NCBI GenBank assembly: GCA_027624955.1
Contig: JAQBTG010000008.1
Span: 1-64,000 of the forward strand
Source of the DNA: Pseudomonadota bacterium
GTDB lineage: Bacteria; Pseudomonadota; Alphaproteobacteria; UBA828
Direction of reading: 5' to 3'
Length of the DNA stretch: 64,000 bases
This document shows, one piece after another, positions 49,972 through 60,538 of the stretch. How positions within the stretch are numbered: the first letter of the stretch is position 1; every line of letters begins with the position of its first letter. The position numbers and the translations under genes are program-made. The notes beneath the pieces were generated by a model, which saw nothing but the letters and a program-made list of their open reading frames with translations, had not been told where the DNA came from and ran no database searches.

Positions 49972-50817
49972 ATGATGCTTAAAACAAGACTGATCGCGTT
50001 TGCGGTCTTCTTTTCGACGACCTTGATTGGTGCCGGCGCGAGCATGGCGCAGTCGCCTAAGGACTGGCAGTTGGGGTTTCAGGACGCGCACAGCCCGACA
50101 ATGGAGCGGATCGTTAGCTTGAACGACATCATGCTTTGGATCTGTATCGTCATGTCGGCGATTGTCATGGGCCTGATGGGTTACATTTTTGTGCGCTTCA
50201 ACCGTAAGAGAAACCCAACGCCGCAAAAATTCACCCACAACTCTCTTATCGAAGTGCTCTGGACCGTTGTTCCGGTGATCGTTCTTGTGGCGATCGCGAT
50301 TCCGTCGTTCCGCTTGCTTTATTTCATGGATCGAACTTCGGAAGCGGAGATGACCATCAAGGCGATTGGCCATCAATGGTATTGGAGCTACGAATACCCC
50401 GACTTGGGCGAAGACATTACGTTCGACGCGGTCATGCTACAGGAAGATGAACTATCGGAAGGGCAGCTCAGACTGCTTGAAACCGATGAAACCGTCGTCG
50501 TCCCAATCGATACAAATATTCGCCTTCTCGTCACAGCGGATGATGTCCTCCACGCTTGGACCATCCCCTCATTCGGCATCAAGATCGACGCCGTACCGGG
50601 ACGAATTAATGAAGGCTGGTTCCGCGTTGACGCAGTGGGAACCTATTACGGCCAATGTTCGGAACTCTGTGGCCGCGACCATGGTTTCATGCCGATACGG
50701 GTCGAAGCGGTCTCGAAAGAAGATTACGCCGAGTGGTCAGCGTACGCCCAGGAAGAATATGCCGGCAATAGCGGCAATGAAGGCGTCACGGTAGCGCATC
50801 TACGGTCGACTGATTAA
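49972..50817 (+). CDS. coxB: Cytochrome c oxidase subunit II
   Basis: The CuA-bearing subunit of the aa3-type oxidase. The 281-residue protein has a signal peptide (MMLKTRLIAFAVFFSTT), two transmembrane helices (around residues 55-80 and 95-115), HQWYWSYEYPD, and the CuA site CSELCGRDHGFM near residue 229. No cytochrome c domain is fused. Subunit I follows 23 bases later. Start may be the first or second of the two ATGs. Confidence 0.96.
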   Translation: MMLKTRLIAFAVFFSTTLIGAGASMAQSPKDWQLGFQDAHSPTMERIVSLNDIMLWICIVMSAIVMGLMGYIFVRFNRKRNPTPQKFTHNSLIEVLWTVVPVIVLVAIAIPSFRLLYFMDRTSEAEMTIKAIGHQWYWSYEYPDLGEDITFDAVMLQEDELSEGQLRLLETDETVVVPIDTNIRLLVTADDVLHAWTIPSFGIKIDAVPGRINEGWFRVDAVGTYYGQCSELCGRDHGFMPIRVEAVSKEDYAEWSAYAQEEYAGNSGNEGVTVAHLRSTD

Positions 50818-50840
50818 GCGGCTAGGGAAGGAATTATTTT

Positions 50841-52457
50841 ATGTCTTATGGCAGCAAAACTGTAGACGGCGCGCACGCGGACCATCACACGCCGACGGGC
50901 ATTACCCGTTGGCTCTATTCCACCAATCATAAAGACATCGGCACGATGTACCTTGTCTTTGCCATGATAATGGGCGTGATCGGTGCGGCGCTTTCGATCA
51001 TGATGCGCATCGAACTCAGTGAACCGGGAATGCAGATTTTCGGTGACAATCCGCATTATTTTAACGTCTTTGTGACGGCGCACGGGTTGATCATGGTGTT
51101 CTTCTTTGTCATGCCCGCCTTTATCGGCGGTATGGGCAATTGGATGGTGCCGTTGATGATCGGCGCGCCTGATATGGCGTTTCCGCGCATGAACAATATT
51201 AGTTTCTGGCTGTTGGTTCCGGCCGGTGCGCTGCTTGTGGGCTCACTTTTCGTGCCGAGTACGGCGGGAGGTTCGACCGGTGTCGGCGGCGGTTGGACGA
51301 TTTATGCTCCGCTGTCGACGAGCGGACAGCCAGGGCCAGCGATGGATATGGCGATATTTGCGCTGCATCTCGCCGGTGCCTCTTCGATCCTCGGCGCTAT
51401 CAATTTTATTACCACAATTCTGAACATGCGGGCGCCAGGCATGACGCTGCACAAGATGCCGCTCTTCTCCTGGTCGATTCTGGTCACGGCATTCCTGCTG
51501 TTGCTCTCGCTGCCGGTTTTGGCGGGCGCCATCACGATGTTGCTGACCGACCGCAATGTCGGCACGACGTTCTTTGATCCGGCCGGCGGCGGTGATCCGG
51601 TCCTATTCCAGCATCTGTTCTGGTTCTTCGGCCATCCGGAAGTCTACATTCTGATCCTGCCGGGCTTCGGCATTGCCAGCCATATTGTGTCGACTTTTTC
51701 GAGAAAGCCCGTATTCGGCTATCTCGGCATGGCCTACGCGATGGTCGCGATCGGCTTTGTCGGCTTCGTGGTGTGGGCGCATCACATGTACACAGTCGGG
51801 ATGGACGTAAATACCCGGGCCTATTTCATTGCCGCAACGATGGTGATTGCGGTGCCTACAGGCATCAAGATTTTCAGCTGGCTGGCCACGATGTGGGGTG
51901 GCTCGATAGAGTTCAAGACGCCGTTGCTGTGGGTTCTGGGCTTTATCTTCTTGTTTACCGTTGGCGGCGTGACGGGCATCGTATTGTCCAACGCCGGCAT
52001 CGATGTCGCCTTACATGACACCTATTACGTGGTCGGGCATTTCCATTACACCATGTCGATCGGCGCGGCGTTCCTGATCTTCGCGGGATTCTATTATTGG
52101 TTCGGCAAGATGTCCGGTAGGCAATATCCGGAGACGCTCGGGAAGATTCACTTCTTCATCTCGTTCATCGGCGTCAACGTGACGTTTTTCCCGATGCATT
52201 TCCTTGGTGCGGCTGGCATGCCGCGCCGTGTTCCGGATTATCCCGACGCCTTTGCTGGCTGGAACATGGTTGCCTCGATCGGATCCCTGATCTCGGCGGT
52301 CGGTATCCTGTTGTTCCTCTTCATTGTGGTCTACACCCTGACCCGGGGTAAAAAATGCGAAGCCAACCCCTGGGGCGAAGGCGCAGATACTCTGGAATGG
52401 ACGGTCGAATCTCCGGCGCCTTTCCACACCCACGAAGTACTGCCGCGTGTCCGTTGA
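50841..52457 (+). CDS. coxA: Cytochrome c oxidase subunit I
   Basis: The catalytic subunit with heme a, heme a3 and CuB. The 538-residue protein has 12 transmembrane helices. Key blocks are [18 protein letters not shown] (heme a ligand His), [18 protein letters not shown] (CuB His and cross-linked Tyr), [12 protein letters not shown] (CuB His pair) and [12 protein letters not shown] (heme a and a3 ligands). It opens the membrane part of the operon after coxB and is followed by heme O synthase. Confidence 0.98.
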
Positions 52458-52487
52458 TCAAATCCGCAGTGCGGGAGGTTTGATCGG

Positions 52488-53408
52488 GTGACGGCCACAG
52501 ATTACCCAGCAGTAAGCGCTGAGTCAGAGGACTACGGCGAAGCGATCGCGCTTGGTGATTTTGTGGCGCTTCTCAAGCCACGCGTCATGTCGCTTGTTGT
52601 ATTTACCGGTGCGGTTGGCATGTTGCTGGCGCCCGGCAACCTGCACCCGGTGCTTGCCGTCGTCGCTATTCTCTGTATCGCGGTTGGCGCTGGCGCTTCC
52701 GGCGCTATCAACATGTGGTACGACCGCGATATCGACGCCTTGATGACGCGGACCCAGAACCGGCCGATACCGGCGGGCCGCATGGCACCAAACGTCGCGC
52801 TCGGATTCGGCATTACTCTGGCTGTGGCCTCTGTTTCGATTATGGCGTTGGCTGTCAACGGCATGGCGGCGGGCCTGCTTGCCTTCACCATCTTTTTTTA
52901 CATCGTCATTTACAGCATGGGGTTGAAGCGCCGCACGCCGCAAAACATCGTTATCGGTGGTGCCGCCGGTGCGTTTCCGCCGATGATCGGGTGGGCAGCC
53001 GTGAGTGGCGACGTGACGCTGGCGTCGGTAGTTCTGTTTGCAATTATCTTTCTGTGGACGCCGCCCCATTTCTGGGCTCTAGCGCTCTACAAGCGCGGCG
53101 ACTATGACAAAGCCGGTGTGCCGATGATGCCGGTGGTTGCCGGCCGCAAATCGACCGCTTGGCAAATGCTGGCCTATACCGTGGCGTTGCTGCCGGTCAC
53201 CTTGTTACCGTGTGTGATCGGTCTTTCGGGCGTGGTTTATGGCGCCGGCGCCCTGGCACTCGGATTGGTGTTTATGGGGTACGCCATCAGCGTCATTCGC
53301 GATACCGGCGAGCGTAGCGCCCGTCGCATGTTCCCTTTTTCGATCCTGTATCTCTTTTTGATCTTCGTCTTGTTGTTGGTCGATCAGAGCGTGCCGGTGG
53401 CTTTCTAG
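52488..53408 (+). CDS. ctaB: Heme O synthase (protoheme IX farnesyltransferase)
   Basis: Adds farnesyl to heme b to make heme O, the heme A precursor. The 306-residue UbiA-superfamily membrane protein has motifs [33 protein letters not shown], and [16 protein letters not shown] 52488 follows a GGGAGGTTTGAT ribosome site. The heme A synthase gene is not in the window. Confidence 0.97.
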
Positions 53409-53412
53409 ATCG

Positions 53413-53541
53413 ATGGATCAGCCCATGCCGGACAAAGAGTATTATCGCCGCCGCCGCTGGCGGAATTATGCATTGGCTGGCGTGTTACTCGGGCTGGTGG
53501 TGCTGTTTTTCTTCATCACCCTCGCCAGGATGGGAGATTGA
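53413..53541 (+). CDS. Small single-membrane-segment protein of the cox operon (CoxF-like)
   Basis: A 42-residue ORF between ctaB and ctaG: a charged, arginine-rich N-terminus (KEYYRRRRWRNYA) followed by one hydrophobic helix (LAGVLLGLVVLFFFITLA). Its stop is one base from the ctaG ATG. Small proteins of this form occur at this place in alphaproteobacterial cox operons; they are usually called CoxF or left unnamed. Function is probably in oxidase assembly; this is inferred from position. Initiation at ATG 53413 is four bases past the ctaB stop. Confidence 0.8.
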   Translation: MDQPMPDKEYYRRRRWRNYALAGVLLGLVVLFFFITLARMGD

Positions 53542-53542
53542 G

Positions 53543-54157
53543 ATGGCGCTCTCTAATAAACGCAAGCGCATGATGCTGGTCGTTCTCGGCGGCGTTGCCT
53601 GCGGCATGGTCGGGCTCTCGTTTGCGGCGGTGCCGCTATACGCAATGTTCTGCAGCGTGACCGGTTTCGGCGGTACGACGCAAATAGCGGAAGCGGCGCC
53701 CGCGTCGATCGGGGAGCGCGTCATGGCGGTGCGCTTCAACTCGGATGTGTCCAGCGATGTGCCGTGGCGTTTCAAGCCGTCCCAGCGCGAGGTTGAATTA
53801 CGTGTCGGTGAGGTTGAGCTGGCCTTTTACACGGCCACCAATGAGTCCCAGAGAACCATTTTGGGCAGCGCCGTGTTCAACGTCACGCCGCTAAAAGCTG
53901 GGATTTATTTCAGCAAGATCGATTGCTTTTGCTTCGAGGAGCAGGTGCTTCGGCCCGGCGAGAGCGCTGAGCTGCCGGTCACCTTTTTTATTGATCCAGA
54001 TATAGTTAACGATCGCGACATGGACGATGTGACGACCATTACTCTCTCTTACACCTTTTTTAATCAAGGCGAAGAAGCGTTGGAGAGTTATTTCGAAAAA
54101 CAAAAAGAAGAGCAACTGGCGAGCCGCGAAATTGGCGGCGCGACGAAACAAAACTGA
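53543..54157 (+). CDS. ctaG: Cytochrome c oxidase assembly protein CtaG/Cox11
   Basis: Delivers copper to the CuB centre of subunit I. The 204-residue protein has an N-terminal membrane anchor (VLGGVACGMVGLSFAAVPLY), the Cys in LYAMFCSVTGFGGTTQ, and the copper-binding CFCFEEQVL motif near residue 130. The ATG is used since it follows the stop of the small ORF by one base; a longer in-frame start would overlap it. Confidence 0.96.
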   Translation: MALSNKRKRMMLVVLGGVACGMVGLSFAAVPLYAMFCSVTGFGGTTQIAEAAPASIGERVMAVRFNSDVSSDVPWRFKPSQREVELRVGEVELAFYTATNESQRTILGSAVFNVTPLKAGIYFSKIDCFCFEEQVLRPGESAELPVTFFIDPDIVNDRDMDDVTTITLSYTFFNQGEEALESYFEKQKEEQLASREIGGATKQN

Positions 54158-54175
54158 AACGGAATTGGCATGATC

Positions 54176-54189
54176 CCGGCTGACGCCGG
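54176..54189 (+). promoter_or_regulatory. Short hairpin between ctaG and coxC
   Basis: CCGGC-TGAC-GCCGG forms a perfect 5-base stem with a 4-base loop, followed by AATTTG. It is too short with too few Ts for a firm terminator call; it could set mRNA stability within the operon. Confidence 0.3.
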
Positions 54190-54211
54190 AATTTGACCAT
54201 GGAGTGACGAT

Positions 54212-55012
54212 ATGAGCGACACCACACATACCAAAGGCCACGAATATCATATGGTCGAACCGAGCCCGTGGCCGGTGCTCGGAGCGCTGGCTGCCGGAAC
54301 GATGTTGGGTGGCTCCGTCCTCTATTTCCATAGCGACCAAATTTGGCTGATGGCCCTTGGGTTCGCGTTGACCATTGGCACGATGTTTTTCTGGTGGCGC
54401 GATGTGATTCGCGAGGGGCGGGATCAAGGCAGTCACACACCTGTCGTCACCCGCGGTATCCGCTTTGGCATGGTGCTGTTCATTGCTTCCGAAGTGATGT
54501 TCTTCGCGGCTTTCTTTTGGGCCTTCTTTAATGCCTCGATCATGCCGACTGAGGCGATCGAATTCACCTGGCCGCCGCCCGGTGTTGAGGCCATGCATGC
54601 CTGGGAATTGCCTTTCCTTAACACCTTGATCCTGTTGACCTCAGGCGCCACGGTGACCTGGGCGCACCACGCATTGCGGCACAACAATCAAAAACAGTTC
54701 ATCTGGGGGTTGGCGCTTACGGTCCTGCTCGGCGTTATTTTCCTCGTCATTCAGGGATACGAATATTCCATCGCCGCGTTCGGGTTCCGCGATGGAATTT
54801 ATTCGTCGACATTCTACATGGCGACCGGCTTCCACGGCTTTCATGTGACCATTGGCGCGATATTCCTCGGCATTTGCCTGTGGCGTGCAATCCGTGGTGA
54901 TTTCAAGCCCGATCAACATATCGGCTTCGAAGCGGCGGCGTGGTATTGGCATTTCGTCGATGTGGTGTGGTTGTTCCTATTCATCTGGGTTTATTGGTGG
55001 GGCGGCGCCTGA
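54212..55012 (+). CDS. coxC: Cytochrome c oxidase subunit III
   Basis: A 266-residue core oxidase subunit with seven transmembrane helices. Family blocks include HMVEPSPWPVLGAL, RFGMVLFIASEVMFFAAFFWAFF, GFHGFHVTIGAIFLG and WYWHFVDVVWLFLF with the C-terminal YWWGG. It lies 54 bases after ctaG. Strong RNA structure follows its stop. Confidence 0.97.
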   Translation: MSDTTHTKGHEYHMVEPSPWPVLGALAAGTMLGGSVLYFHSDQIWLMALGFALTIGTMFFWWRDVIREGRDQGSHTPVVTRGIRFGMVLFIASEVMFFAAFFWAFFNASIMPTEAIEFTWPPPGVEAMHAWELPFLNTLILLTSGATVTWAHHALRHNNQKQFIWGLALTVLLGVIFLVIQGYEYSIAAFGFRDGIYSSTFYMATGFHGFHVTIGAIFLGICLWRAIRGDFKPDQHIGFEAAAWYWHFVDVVWLFLFIWVYWWGGA

Positions 55013-55055
55013 GCGCGCTGCCGCTGCCCTGACCAAGGGCGGTATCAGGTTAAGA

Positions 55056-55118
55056 GACGACGCCCGGGGGCCGAATGAGGCTCGCGGGCGTTGTCCTGTT
55101 GGCATAGAATGCCAACAG
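55056..55118 (+). ncRNA. Double hairpin between coxC and the DUF983 gene
   Basis: Two adjacent stems lie in the 151-base gap. Stem one is GACGACGCCCG (55056-55066) with CGGGCGTTGTC (55085-55095), an 11-base stem with one G-T wobble. Stem two starts on the next base: CTGTTGGCAT (55096-55105), loop AGA, ATGCCAACAG (55109-55118), a perfect 10-base stem. A run of six Ts follows at 55137-55142, 18 bases beyond. It could act as a partial terminator, a processing site or a regulatory leader. No known riboswitch pattern was recognised. Confidence 0.5.
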
Positions 55119-55163
55119 CGACGCAGGGCTCCGAAATTTTTTCGTTAAGGGAAATGCCACGGC

Positions 55164-55538
55164 ATGGCTTCTTTGCCACCAATCCCGGTCTCTTTTCTTC
55201 GTGCCGGCCTGTTGTGCCGCTGCCCCAATTGCGGCAAGGGCCGGCTTTATTCGGGCTATCTAAAGGTTGTCGAGACATGCGCCAAGTGCGGGTTCGAGCT
55301 GCGCAAGCATGACGCAGGCGATGGCCCGGCGGTATTTGTCGTGCTCATTGTCGGTGCCATCATCGTCGGTTTGGCACTCTGGGTCGAAATTTCCTATCAG
55401 CCGCCCTATTGGGTGCATCTCGTGATCTGGGCTCCGGCCATTCTTGGCGGCTGCCTCGGGGCTCTTCGGCCGGCAAAAGCGATTTTGATCGCGCTACAAT
55501 TCAAACACAGGATTTCAGGTTTTGACGACGCGGGATGA
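55164..55538 (+). CDS. DUF983 family protein
   Basis: A 124-residue protein with paired zinc-ribbon cysteines CRCPNCGKG and CAKCGFEL, followed by two transmembrane helices (about residues 55-75 and 80-100). DUF983 proteins lie beside cox and surf1 genes throughout alphaproteobacteria; a role in oxidase assembly is inferred from position. Its 3' end overlaps the surf1 5' end. Confidence 0.9.
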   Translation: MASLPPIPVSFLRAGLLCRCPNCGKGRLYSGYLKVVETCAKCGFELRKHDAGDGPAVFVVLIVGAIIVGLALWVEISYQPPYWVHLVIWAPAILGGCLGALRPAKAILIALQFKHRISGFDDAG

Positions 55539-56271
55539 GACTTCTGTGCCAATGGCACGACGCTGGGTGATTTTTGTTGCCATCCCCGGCGTGTTGATTT
55601 TATTGGCGCTCGGCTCTTGGCAGGTGCAGCGCCTCATGTGGAAGAACGAGGCCAACGAATTCCGCCACATTCGCGCAAGTTCTGAGGCCGTGGCGCTACC
55701 CGAAATGGTAGCGGATGCGGCTGCCATGTTGTATCGCCCGGTATGGCTGGAAGGCCGTTTTCTGCATCAGCAGGAAATGTTTCTGGCGGCGCGCTCTTAC
55801 AACTCAAACACCGGCTACCATGTCATCACGCCGTTCGAAAGAAGCGATGGTGGCTTCGTTCTGGTTAATCGTGGCTGGGTCCCGCTAGACCGCAAGGACC
55901 CGGCAACACGCATCGCAGCTCAAATAGACGGCATGGTGCGTATTGAGGGGCTGCTAACCGGCGGCAATATTCCCGGCTGGATGACCCCTGACAACGTGCC
56001 GGAAGAGAATTTCTGGTATTGGATCGACCTGCCGTCGCTGTACGGCCATGTCGGCCTTGAGCCGCGCGACTATCTCATTGATGCCAGCGCGGCGGCCAAT
56101 CCGGGTGGCTACCCGATCGGTGGCCAGACCAGAACTGAGCTGCGCAACGAACACCTGCAATATGTTGTCATTTGGTATGCGCTTGCCGTCTGCCTTTGTG
56201 TGATCACCTTTCTGATGTTACGAAATGCGCGCCGCCGGGCGCGTCACAGCGCCGTGGAAAAAGCCTCTTGA
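55522..56271 (+). CDS. SURF1 family cytochrome oxidase assembly protein
   Basis: Helps insert heme A into subunit I. The 249-residue protein has the family topology: a transmembrane helix at each end (VIFVAIPGVLILLALGSW and YVVIWYALAVCLCVITFLML) with a periplasmic loop between. Conserved blocks are LGSWQVQRLMWK, RPVWLEGRF and VNRGWVPLDR. The start is uncertain: TTG 55522, GTG 55546 and ATG 55552 are in frame. Its stop overlaps the TTG of the carboxypeptidase gene. Confidence 0.93.
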   Translation: MTTRDETSVPMARRWVIFVAIPGVLILLALGSWQVQRLMWKNEANEFRHIRASSEAVALPEMVADAAAMLYRPVWLEGRFLHQQEMFLAARSYNSNTGYHVITPFERSDGGFVLVNRGWVPLDRKDPATRIAAQIDGMVRIEGLLTGGNIPGWMTPDNVPEENFWYWIDLPSLYGHVGLEPRDYLIDASAAANPGGYPIGGQTRTELRNEHLQYVVIWYALAVCLCVITFLMLRNARRRARHSAVEKAS

Positions 56272-57770
56272 GCGCTTACGAACAGCTTGAGCAGCGCTTC
56301 CAGCGTATGTCGAATTTGGGCGGCGCGGCGGCTGTGCTGCAATGGGATTGGGCGACGATCATGCCGGCGGGCGGTGCCGAGGCGCGCGCCGCGCAGCTTT
56401 CAGAGCTCGATGTTATCCGTCACGAATTGATGACCGATCCAAAACTAGGCGATTTGCTCGGCGCGGCGGAGTTAGCGCGCGCCGACCTGGGCCCTTGGCA
56501 GGACGCCAATCTCTCCGAAATGCGCCATCGCTGGGCCCATGCCAATGCGCTGCCGGCAGATTTGGTGGCGGCGTCCAGCACTGCGGCCTCAACTTGCGAA
56601 CTTGTGTGGCGCGAGGCCCGTGCGTCGAACGATTTCCCGGCCTTTCAGAAAGCTTTTGAGCCGCTCCTCGGCTTGATCCGGGAAAAGGCTGAGGCCAAAG
56701 CGGCGGCGCTCGGTCTTGCCCCCTACGATGCCCTGATCGACGGCTATGATCCGGGTTTCGCATGCGCGGAGATTGACGTCATTTTTGATGATCTGGCGGG
56801 TTTTTTGCCCGCCTTTCTGGCCCAGGTCTTGGACAAGCAGGCGCATGAAACAGCGCCGCTCCGTCCCACCGGCCCGTTTGCCGTTGCACAGCAACGTGCA
56901 CTCTCCCGGACTCTTATGGAGCGCATCGGATTCGATTTTGGCCATGGCAGGTTGGACGAAAGCCATCATCCCTTTTGTGGCGGCGTTGCGGAAGATGTCC
57001 GCATCACCACGCGCTATGACGAACTCGATTTTACATCTTCGCTGATGGGCGTGTTGCATGAAACCGGCCACGCGCTTTATGAGCGTGGGTTGCCGGCAGA
57101 GTGGCGGACGCAGCCGGTCGGGGAATCGCGCAGCATGAGCCTGCACGAGAGCCAATCCCTGCTAATGGAGATGCAAGTTTGCCGCGGCGGCGAGTTTATC
57201 GGTTTTGCCGCGCCGCTGATGCGCGAGGCCTTCGCTGCGAACGGGTCTGAGGCCGACCCCGCATTCGCACCCGACAATCTGCAACGAATGGCGCTCATCG
57301 TGGCGCCTGATTTTATTCGGGTCGACGCCGATGAGGTCACCTATCCGGCGCACATCATGCTGCGCTACCGCCTCGAGAAAGCAATGATAGCAGGCGATCT
57401 TCAGGCGACCGACCTGCCCGACGCCTGGCGCGAGGGCATGCGGGAATTTCTCGGTTTGACGCCGCGCAACGACGGTGAAGGCTGTCTCCAAGACATCCAT
57501 TGGGCTGGGGGTGATATCGGTTATTTTCCGAGCTATACCTTGGGTGCTTTGATCGCGGCCCAGCTTTTCGAAAGCGCCTGCCACGGTATCGCAGGCCTAC
57601 GATCAGGGCTTGCCGCGGGCGAATTTGCTGATTTGTTGACCTGGCTGCGCGGCGCCGTTCACAGTCAGGCATCGCGCTATTCCAGCCATGAACTTATAGA
57701 ACGCGCGACCGGCCGCCCGCTCAGCACCGATGCCTTTAAGGCTCATCTACAGGCGCGTTATCTTGGCTGA
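56268..57770 (+). CDS. M32 family carboxypeptidase
   Basis: A 500-residue zinc carboxypeptidase, thermostable carboxypeptidase 1 type, predicted cytoplasmic. The zinc motif HExxH appears as HETGH in GVLHETGHALYERGLP, with the downstream Glu in LHESQSLLMEMQ. Typical blocks DVRITTRYDELDF and HWAGGDIGYFPSYTLG are present. TTG 56268 is chosen because it gives a TTGA overlap with surf1 and the family-like opening SAYEQLEQRF. It is an unusual neighbour in a cox-thrC operon. Confidence 0.93.
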   Translation: MSAYEQLEQRFQRMSNLGGAAAVLQWDWATIMPAGGAEARAAQLSELDVIRHELMTDPKLGDLLGAAELARADLGPWQDANLSEMRHRWAHANALPADLVAASSTAASTCELVWREARASNDFPAFQKAFEPLLGLIREKAEAKAAALGLAPYDALIDGYDPGFACAEIDVIFDDLAGFLPAFLAQVLDKQAHETAPLRPTGPFAVAQQRALSRTLMERIGFDFGHGRLDESHHPFCGGVAEDVRITTRYDELDFTSSLMGVLHETGHALYERGLPAEWRTQPVGESRSMSLHESQSLLMEMQVCRGGEFIGFAAPLMREAFAANGSEADPAFAPDNLQRMALIVAPDFIRVDADEVTYPAHIMLRYRLEKAMIAGDLQATDLPDAWREGMREFLGLTPRNDGEGCLQDIHWAGGDIGYFPSYTLGALIAAQLFESACHGIAGLRSGLAAGEFADLLTWLRGAVHSQASRYSSHELIERATGRPLSTDAFKAHLQARYLG

Positions 57771-57845
57771 TGACTGCCGCTTGCGCTCGGCCATGTGCGG
57801 CGTACAGTCTGGCATCAATTTGATCATGCCCGTGAGATATCGCCC

Positions 57846-59282
57846 ATGCGTTATGTGAGCACGCGCGGCGAAGGCGGTGCTGGGGTGTCGTTTGAAGATG
57901 TGCTGCTCGTCGGCCTTGCGCGCGACGGCGGATTGTTTGTTCCAAAAAGCTGGCCAGCGCCATTTTCAAGCGGCGAACTTGATGAGCTCGCCGCACTCGA
58001 TTATGCCGATCTCGCGGCCCGATTGACGCGACCCTTTGTGGGAGACGCGGTGGAACCTGCGGCGCTCGAAATTATTGCTCGAGAAAGCTATGCGGCATTT
58101 GATCATCCGGCGACGGCGCCCCTTCGCCAACTCGGTAACGGCCTCTGGCTGATGGAGTTGTTCCACGGGCCGACATTGTCGTTTAAGGACTATGCTCTGC
58201 AATTTCTTGGTCGCCTGTTTGATCACGTCGTGGCGCGGCGCGGACAACGGTTGACCATTCTCGGCGCGACGTCCGGCGATACTGGGTCCGCCGCGATCGA
58301 AGCGTGTCGTGGGCGTGACTCTCTCTCCATTATTATTCTGCATCCGCATGGCCGTGTGTCGGAAGTGCAACGCCGGCAGATGACCACCGTCGATTCTCCA
58401 AACGTGCACAATGTTGCCATCGAGGGGACGTTCGACGACTGCCAGGCCCTGGTAAAAGCAATGTTCACCGATCTGCCGCTCCGCGACTCGCTCAATCTGG
58501 CCGCGATAAATTCGATCAATTGGGCACGAATCATGGCGCAAACCATTTATTACGCCTATGCCGCTCTCGCCTTGGGTTCGCCGGCGCGCCCCGTTTCGTT
58601 TGCCGTGCCAACGGGAAATTTCGGTAATGTTTATTCTGGCTACGTTGCTGCCCGGCTCGGCCTACCTATCCAAAATCTGCTCGTGGCGACAAACGCCAAT
58701 GATATTTTAGCGCGATTTTTTGCCGGCGCCGGGTATCGAAAAAGTGAGGTCATCCCGAGCATAAGCCCGAGTATGGATATCCAAGTGGCGAGCAACTTCG
58801 AGCGCCTGTTGTTTGAACTCCAGGGCCGAAACGGAACCGAGGTCCGGGCTTTGATCGAAAGCCTGGACTCGGATAGCGGCTTCGATGTGGCGCCAGAAAA
58901 ACTCCAAGACGCCCACCGCCTGTTTTCTGCCCGTCGGGTAGACGATGCGCGCGCGCTTCAATGCATGGCAGAAACTTGGCGGAATTGCGGCATGTTGATT
59001 GATCCGCACAGTGCGGCCGGCCTGGCCGCCGCAATGGATGCTGCAGAAGAGCGTGAAGGTAAAGGCGGCCAATCCGCGACGATTTGTCTTGCGACCGCAC
59101 ATCCGGCTAAATTCCCCGATGCGGTTGAGCAGGCGACTGGTGTCCGCCCGGCGTTGCCGGCGGCGTTGACCGATTTGCTCCGGCGTCCGGAGCAGGTGAC
59201 GCAACTGCCAAATGATTTGGCCGCGGTGAAAGCATATGTCCGTGCTACAGCAGCGGGCCAACATGAAGGGAACGTTGCGTGA
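57846..59282 (+). CDS. thrC: Threonine synthase
   Basis: Makes threonine from O-phosphohomoserine with PLP. The 478-residue protein shows the Schiff-base Lys in GPTLSFKDYALQFLG, GATSGDTGSAAIEA and PTGNFGNVYSGY phosphate-binding loops. It is of the long bacterial/fungal type. Homoserine kinase (thrB), the preceding step, is also in this window. It is followed by an M16 protease gene with a GTGA overlap, the usual alphaproteobacterial order. Confidence 0.96.
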   Translation: MRYVSTRGEGGAGVSFEDVLLVGLARDGGLFVPKSWPAPFSSGELDELAALDYADLAARLTRPFVGDAVEPAALEIIARESYAAFDHPATAPLRQLGNGLWLMELFHGPTLSFKDYALQFLGRLFDHVVARRGQRLTILGATSGDTGSAAIEACRGRDSLSIIILHPHGRVSEVQRRQMTTVDSPNVHNVAIEGTFDDCQALVKAMFTDLPLRDSLNLAAINSINWARIMAQTIYYAYAALALGSPARPVSFAVPTGNFGNVYSGYVAARLGLPIQNLLVATNANDILARFFAGAGYRKSEVIPSISPSMDIQVASNFERLLFELQGRNGTEVRALIESLDSDSGFDVAPEKLQDAHRLFSARRVDDARALQCMAETWRNCGMLIDPHSAAGLAAAMDAAEEREGKGGQSATICLATAHPAKFPDAVEQATGVRPALPAALTDLLRRPEQVTQLPNDLAAVKAYVRATAAGQHEGNVA

Positions 59283-60538
59283 CGACACAAATTTCAACCC
59301 TGGCAAACGGCTTGCGCGTGGTGAGTGAGGAAATGCCGCATATTGAGACGGCATCCATTGGCGTTTGGGTCGATGTCGGCGCGCGTTACGAAAGCGCTGA
59401 CATAAACGGCGTGTCTCATCTGCTGGAGCATATGGCTTTCAAAGGCACGAAGCGCCGCAGTGCTTTGGCCATTGCTGAGGAGATCGAGGCGGTTGGTGGC
59501 CACGTCAACGCCTATACCTCGCGTGAGCAGACCGCCTATTACGCCAAGGTGATGAAGGAAGATACCGCGCTCGCGGTCGATATTTTGGCCGATATTCTTC
59601 AGCACTCGACGTTTGCGGAAGACGAATTGGCGCGTGAACGCGAGGTGGTTATTCAGGAAATCGCCCAAGCCCATGATACGCCCGATGATGTCGTCTTCGA
59701 TCAATTTCAAGAAATAATTTATCCGGACCAACCGCTCGGGCGCACCATTCTCGGTCCGGCTGCGCAGGTCGAGAACTATTCGCGCGATGTCCTGGCCGAT
59801 TATATGGGCCGGCACTATAACGCTCAGCGCATGGTCGTCGTCGGCGCCGGGCGGCTCGAACATGACGTGTTGGTGGAAATGGCGGGAAACGCTTTTATCG
59901 ACCTGCCGACGGCCGGATCGACCGACGATCTCACAGCCAAATATGAAGGCGGCGATGTACGAACAAGCCGGGAATTGGAGCAGGCCCATCTGGTGCTCGG
60001 CTTCGACGGGATCGCGTATGGCGATGCGGATTATTATACGGCTCAGTTGCTCTCAACTCTGTTGGGGGGCGGCATGTCGTCGCGCCTGTTCCAAGAAATT
60101 CGCGAACGGCGCGGGTTAGCCTACTCGGTCTTCAGCTTCGCTTCGTCCTATACGGATGGTGGCGTGTTCGGCGTTTATTGCGGCACTGGCCCCGATAAAC
60201 TGGCTGAGCTCACGCCGGTAATCTCCGATGAATTGCAGAAGGTGTGCGAAAAAGTGACATCGGAAGAAATCGACCGCGCCCGCGCTCAGCTGAAATCGGG
60301 TCTTCTCATGTCGCTCGAATCCAGCTCGTCGCGCTGCGAGCGCCTGGGGCGGCAAATGCTAATTTTTAACCGCTCCGTCCCAATCGAAGAAATGGTCGCG
60401 GAAATAGACGTAATCACCGCCGAGGATGTCGTGCGGGTAGCCGTGCGAATTTTTCGTGGCAGCCGGCCGAGCCTCGCAGCGCTCGGACCGGTTTCCGGTC
60501 TTGAAAGTTATGACCGAGTCGCGGAGCGATTTGCCTAA
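59279..60538 (+). CDS. M16 family processing peptidase (mitochondrial processing peptidase-like)
   Basis: A 419-residue predicted cytoplasmic M16 peptidase. The zinc motif is intact in HLLEHMAFKGT (H-x-x-E-H). Further blocks include VGGHVNAYTSREQTAYYAKVM and GGGMSSRLFQEIRERRGLAYSV. It is the close bacterial relative of the mitochondrial processing peptidase beta subunit. GTG 59279 overlaps the thrC stop. Unlike the M16 pair at 12-15 kb it has no signal peptide. Confidence 0.94.
   Translation: MTTQISTLANGLRVVSEEMPHIETASIGVWVDVGARYESADINGVSHLLEHMAFKGTKRRSALAIAEEIEAVGGHVNAYTSREQTAYYAKVMKEDTALAVDILADILQHSTFAEDELAREREVVIQEIAQAHDTPDDVVFDQFQEIIYPDQPLGRTILGPAAQVENYSRDVLADYMGRHYNAQRMVVVGAGRLEHDVLVEMAGNAFIDLPTAGSTDDLTAKYEGGDVRTSRELEQAHLVLGFDGIAYGDADYYTAQLLSTLLGGGMSSRLFQEIRERRGLAYSVFSFASSYTDGGVFGVYCGTGPDKLAELTPVISDELQKVCEKVTSEEIDRARAQLKSGLLMSLESSSSRCERLGRQMLIFNRSVPIEEMVAEIDVITAEDVVRVAVRIFRGSRPSLAALGPVSGLESYDRVAERFA

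Follow-up and report, generated by a model that had tools for sequence, protein, structure and literature searches.

The spacer between coxC and DUF983 holds two abutting hairpins that probably fold as RNA within the sense (+) transcript of the cox genes. There they would delimit the core message coxB-coxA-ctaB-ctaG-coxC at its 3' end and give the core an excess over the products encoded downstream. Judging from the sequence, our reading is that a boundary recurs at the 3' end of the core cox message and that the element is a tail-less form of it, specific to the genus, which acts as an mRNA-stabilising or processing block or as a leaky terminator. The reading draws on the predicted fold, the place of the element, its single copy, the partial conservation of its pairing in the genus and the enrichment of hairpins at this junction elsewhere.

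The window, by which we mean the whole 64,000-nucleotide stretch of DNA that was analysed, carries a cox gene cluster on its + strand, identified from open reading frames and Pfam: coxB (COX2), coxA (COX1), ctaB (UbiA family), ctaG/cox11 and coxC (COX3). Downstream of coxC, DUF983, SURF1, an M32 carboxypeptidase and threonine synthase follow on the same strand. The features around the element are these:

54212..55012, + strand: coxC, cytochrome c oxidase subunit III, the upstream gene (open reading frame; Pfam COX3, E 3.2e-99)
55010-55012, + strand: coxC stop codon (sequence)
55013..55163, + strand: coxC-DUF983 spacer, 151 nt (sequence)
55023..55043, + strand: possible stem 0, 8 pairs, GCTGCCCT/AGGGCGGT (fold of the spacer alone; absent in a 271-nt context)
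55056..55095, + strand: stem-loop I, 11 outer and 5 inner pairs (sequence, fold and relatives)
55096..55118, + strand: stem-loop II, 10 perfect pairs, loop AGA (sequence, fold and relatives)
55132..55144, + strand: weak A-U hairpin containing the T6 run at 55137-55142 (fold; run absent in four relatives)
55164..55538, + strand: DUF983 gene, downstream, ATG at 55164 (Pfam DUF983, E 7.9e-34)
55552..56271, + strand: SURF1, oxidase biogenesis factor, downstream, start codon assumed (Pfam SURF1, E 3.7e-48)

An earlier, sequence-only reading had described an 11-base wobble stem abutting a perfect 10-base stem, and both the sequence and the folds confirm these coordinates. The outer arms of stem I (GACGACGCCCG, 55056-55066, and CGGGCGTTGTC, 55085-55095) form 11 pairs, one of them G-U. 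That reading had the outer pairs right and left unmentioned 5 further inner pairs, one G-U, which follow a G-G mismatch (GGGCC, 55068-55072, with GGCTC, 55079-55083) and bring stem I to 16 pairs with loop GAATGA. In stem II, CTGTTGGCAT (55096-55105) pairs with ATGCCAACAG (55109-55118), and no base separates the two stems. The tails directly behind them are CTGTTGG for stem I and CGACGCAGGG for stem II. The six Ts placed 18 bases 3' of stem II, and a gap of 151 bases, are both found on the sequence. Open reading frames that overlap the hairpins (98 and 73 aa on the + strand, 77 aa on the - strand) were set aside as mechanical.

The element is predicted to fold with extreme stability. Positions 55030-55190 (161 nt) reach -72.5 kcal/mol (z = -4.44), and none of 200 shuffles was as low. 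No other 70-nt stretch of the 64-kb window has so low an energy: of 12,786 stretches (step 5), the element's own is the one that reaches -48.8. After correction for GC content its residual was again the best (-26.2, compared with -15.9 at the next independent place). Perfect 10-pair stems are found at 3 places in the window and at 0-3 in each of 10 shuffled windows; such a stem is rare without being unique, and hence what is exceptional is the pair of stems jointly. The extreme folding, together with pairing that is partly kept in the genus, fits the earlier suggestion that the two stems are more than chance. When folded in a 271-nt context, stem I loses its three outermost pairs (p ~0.06) and keeps the remaining 13 (p at least 0.86), and stem II has pair probabilities of 0.75-1.0. 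Stem 0 is replaced in this context and is therefore retained merely as a possibility.

Searching the genome that contains the window (G000; 84 contigs, 3.58 Mb) at the DNA level matched the element once. The names of its close relatives (MarineAlpha10_Bin2, two Rhodospirillaceae MAGs and one uncultured Alphaproteobacteria MAG) suggest a marine origin. G000 also encodes a second, diverged DUF983 homologue (C18:10930-11247; 35% identity). The locus was found in five genomes of the genus; the element lies at the same place in four of them (G000, G002, G004 and G005) and is partly decayed in the fifth (G003). We built a covariance model from these four genomes, which it matches by construction (E 1e-13 to 3e-10 in a search of 21 family genomes). 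Nothing else in the family fell below E 0.067, the value of a match (L090) in G001, where no coxC or DUF983 match was found. Besides the element itself, the model's matches in G000 had E values of only 0.53 and 0.86 (150 of 2059 candidates scored). Across 289 genomes of the class, two of them from the genus, we found no strong match outside the genus with strict filters and 17 candidates scored per genome; the 8 weak matches outside it (E 0.008-0.042) compare with about 14 expected by chance at E 0.05. A dispersed repeat of the REP or MITE type, which should have several genomic copies, was rejected, as neither the DNA search nor the covariance model found a second one.

Judged by coxC, G003 is among the window's two nearest relatives and is as near to it in this gene as G004 (89% each), yet its spacer is shortened to 113 nt. 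Both stems are partly decayed there, with parts missing, and the spacer folds no better than shuffles (z = +0.59) and holds a different 9-pair hairpin. Because of this decay, G003 was omitted from the covariance model and the pair counts; it is included in the genus alignment and the spacer-fold survey. Two segments, CTCGCGGG and TTGGCnTA, do not vary among the five genus sequences; within stem I, the 3' arm is more invariant than the 5' arm. Only the window's genome has the T6 run, and the other four lack it. DUF983 is preceded by a spacer of -4 to 55 nt in other genera of the family. G009, with no DUF983 match, has 276 nt from coxC to SURF1 and no strong folding (z = -0.80).

Pairing across the genus is partly retained. 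In a four-sequence alignment of 27 pairs, 85.8% of cells are paired, compared with 33-48% when the partners are slid, and 4 pairs are changed on both sides, compared with 0-2. The observed percentage was reached by 65 of 500 shuffles and the number of double changes by 14 of 500. With four informative sequences, the covariation is modest. Relative to the window, 14 of 28 changed pairs stay standard where 7.4 would be expected at random (P = 0.003); by genome, the pairs kept are 4/5 in G004, 1/7 in G002, where most of stem II is lost, and 9/16 in G005. Conserved pairing in relatives, one of the two points on which the sequence-only reading had staked its idea, is thus partly present, better in stem I than in stem II, and is decayed in G003. 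We conclude that the element is real, unusually strong and moderately conserved in its genus.

We also asked which strand the pairing belongs to. Read on the - strand, changed pairs are kept in 9 of 26 cases. G-U cells outnumber C-A cells by 15 to 5. The + strand of the element folds better than the - strand in all four genomes, with a near tie in G002, and that of the whole spacer in just 3 of the 5 genus genomes. The excess of G-U over C-A, the fewer pairs kept on the - strand and the better folding of the + strand all favour a sense RNA over a DNA palindrome, so that on balance the structure would seem to lie in the sense transcript. A DNA palindrome for a transcription factor at TTGGCATAGAATGCC was rejected, since its right half changes to G-U partners in G004 and G005, where RNA pairing is kept and DNA symmetry is lost. 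Sigma-54 sites have a GG-to-GC distance of 10; at TTGGCATAGAATGCC the distance in the window is 8, and such a site was likewise rejected.

We then compared the same spacer across alphaproteobacteria. Of 192 genomes sampled, 152 have coxC; we used 30 loci (3 already in the set) and 60 further stretches, taken in order of E value and passing over any already in the set, which biases the sample towards closer coxC sequences. From 195 loci, 26 were left out (L001, L049, L050 and L086-L108), and among the 169 examined 12 without coxC and 22 duplicates were dropped, leaving 135 distinct coxC loci. L049 and L050 (G000:C70:3221-4397) are two more weak subunit III-like matches, one with an internal TAG, and perhaps belong to another heme-copper oxidase cluster. 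Gap lengths assume that each DUF983, SURF1 and coxC start matches that of the window. The next gene, DUF983 or SURF1, begins less than 50 nt behind coxC in 93 of the 135 loci. The spacer is 50-400 nt long in 38, of which 5 are from the window's genus, and neither gene was found behind coxC in 4, one of which (L152) is cut by a contig end. As a control we took the ctaG-coxC spacer, genus members included: 14 loci had no usable ctaG, 62 had less than 50 nt and 59 were used.

Spacers behind coxC are strongly folded far more often than the control. At 50-400 nt, z is -2 or lower in 19 of 33 coxC 3' spacers outside the genus, compared with 6 of 59 ctaG-coxC spacers (Fisher P = 3e-6, an optimistic value that ignores kinship), and the median z is -2.38 (n = 33) compared with -0.37 (n = 59). 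Because the spacers are unequal in length (median 113 compared with 65), we compared them in matched length classes. Strong folding by the same threshold was found in 6/15 coxC 3' spacers compared with 3/49 controls at 50-99 nt, 11/19 compared with 4/37 at 60-129 nt, 16/21 compared with 4/17 at 80-199 nt, and 11/14 compared with 3/10 at 100-199 nt (P = 0.04, again optimistic in ignoring kinship). Other controls were rarely strongly folded: 1/11 for DUF983-SURF1 spacers and 9/96 for stretches of coxC coding sequence of equal length. Three ctaG-coxC control spacers stand out as strongly folded (L179, L068 and L182; z = -5.8, -5.3 and -3.5). Stems of at least 9 pairs occur in 15 of 33 coxC 3' spacers outside the genus and in 6 of 59 controls. 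This enrichment points to the coxC 3' spacer as a preferred site of hairpins or terminator-like structures when there is room, of which the window's element is an instance, and it fits the earlier proposal that the stems could cap the cox message.

By eye, and evident near relatives aside, the hairpins of different lineages appear unrelated in sequence. In L024 (G055), a 17-pair hairpin (GCGATGCCGGCCCGTTCG...) without a U tail fills much of a 67-nt coxC-DUF983 spacer (z ~ -7). L065, L077, L121 and L153 have intrinsic-terminator-like hairpins with T-rich tails behind coxC and before a co-directional DUF983 or SURF1. A T-rich tail follows 11 of the 15 stems outside the genus, none of the 6 control stems and 1 of 3 stems within the genus; as the window's stems lack the tail that is common in these comparable stems, the comparison may join unlike things.

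If the cluster is transcribed as one unit, as we infer, the two GC-rich hairpins would most likely provide the message with a stable 3' end just after coxC. The downstream RNA covering DUF983-SURF1 would be cut or degraded and 3'-to-5' exonucleases would halt at the hairpins, and/or part of the polymerases would stop there. The cell would then produce more of the core subunits than of the downstream gene products. SURF1 participates in oxidase biogenesis (PMC4013037) and is presumably needed in smaller amount than the oxidase subunits. The same source describes DUF983 proteins as carrying signatures of the oxidase subunit COX4 (PMC4013037); if so, DUF983 would be no helper, and the idea of a boundary between subunits and helpers would be weaker.

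Known systems offer partial parallels for such a boundary. The intercistronic hairpins of Rhodobacter puf, at the pufBA/pufLMX boundary, can block 3' exonucleases without a U tail. Like them, the element is structured RNA within the genes for a membrane complex of an alphaproteobacterium, here a stable hairpin between co-directional genes of one cluster that presumably form one operon. They differ in that an effect on mRNA stability is reported for puf, whereas the element is known here from its sequence and predicted fold, and in that it sits behind an oxidase subunit gene. REP-type palindromes stabilise upstream mRNA and likewise form hairpins between genes, downstream of one for which high expression is expected; the window's element, in contrast, is found once in its genome. 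Protein ratios in the pufBALMX operon are described as being set by structural RNA-stabilising elements (PMC11354728, PMC8625941). In a literature search we recognised no paper on a hairpin or terminator between coxC and DUF983 or SURF1, which is weak evidence of absence.

The alternative that survives best, though we consider it rather unlikely, is a plain intrinsic terminator that ends the cox message, with DUF983-SURF1 expressed from its own promoter or by read-through. The element shares with intrinsic (Rho-independent) terminators a GC-rich stem-loop behind a stop codon, and hairpins in this spacer of other alphaproteobacteria often carry T tails, as noted above for 11 of 15 clear stems. 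Within the genus, this loose criterion yields a single tailed stem, namely stem I of G004 (tail TTCCGTTG). However, neither stem of the window has a U-rich tract directly behind it or was listed as a terminator-like site in a terminator scan, the T6 run lies 18 nt away and is absent in four relatives, and co-directional genes continue downstream. On the + strand, a consensus scan of 50000-60000 listed no site resembling a promoter; a sigma-70 promoter around TAGAAT was rejected on the same result. As the U tract is lacking, we prefer a block that acts through processing or stability to an intrinsic terminator. Of the transcript ends mapped in Zymomonas mobilis, also an alphaproteobacterium, about a third are reported at predicted intrinsic terminators (PMC7566282), indicating that other types of end are common.

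A protein-bound or switching role fares less well. The invariance of CTCGCGGG and TTGGCnTA in the five genus sequences would suit a cis-regulatory leader of DUF983-SURF1, an attenuator or a ligand- or protein-bound element, that switches downstream expression, but we regard this as improbable. The core of the stems has no competing fold: stem II and 13 of the 16 stem I pairs dominate the predicted ensemble, and in place of mutually exclusive folds there is displacement of just stem 0 and the outermost 3 pairs of stem I. An Rfam search over 54900-55300 returned no family at its gathering score (best RsmW, 24.9 bits where 52 are required), in agreement with the earlier remark that the element matches no riboswitch, and intact stems are missing in G003. 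The suggestion of a switching attenuator is thus unsupported, as is that of a small RNA. The latter, cut from the 3' end of coxC, is slightly more doubtful still: the structure is strong and stable, and small RNAs derived from 3' UTRs are documented in Rhodobacter sphaeroides (PMC8625941), but there is no terminator directly behind the stems, no promoter-like site in the region scanned and no conservation of the T run. Least probable of all is a palindromic spacer that has no function and slowly decays, as G003 and stem II of G002 might suggest, in view of the fold strength, the kept pairs in G004 and G005 and the enrichment of structure at the coxC-DUF983/SURF1 junction outside the genus.

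We thus return to a 3' boundary of the core cox message as the preferred explanation. A bolder version, which we put forward as speculative and unlikely, if less so than a leader or a small RNA, is that the double hairpin is a genus-specific RNA platform. A protein or ribonuclease would recognise it through the invariant segments and actively tune the amount of DUF983 and SURF1 per oxidase core, and unrelated hairpins would have arisen repeatedly at this junction across alphaproteobacteria for the same purpose. Taken by itself, the single element in the window is best read as an ordinary sort of operon punctuation. If the preferred explanation is right, an RNA boundary has evolved repeatedly at the coxC-DUF983/SURF1 junction of oxidase operons in alphaproteobacteria. 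By this simple means one message would yield much enzyme and little downstream product, as in the puf operon, giving a testable rule for oxidase biogenesis.
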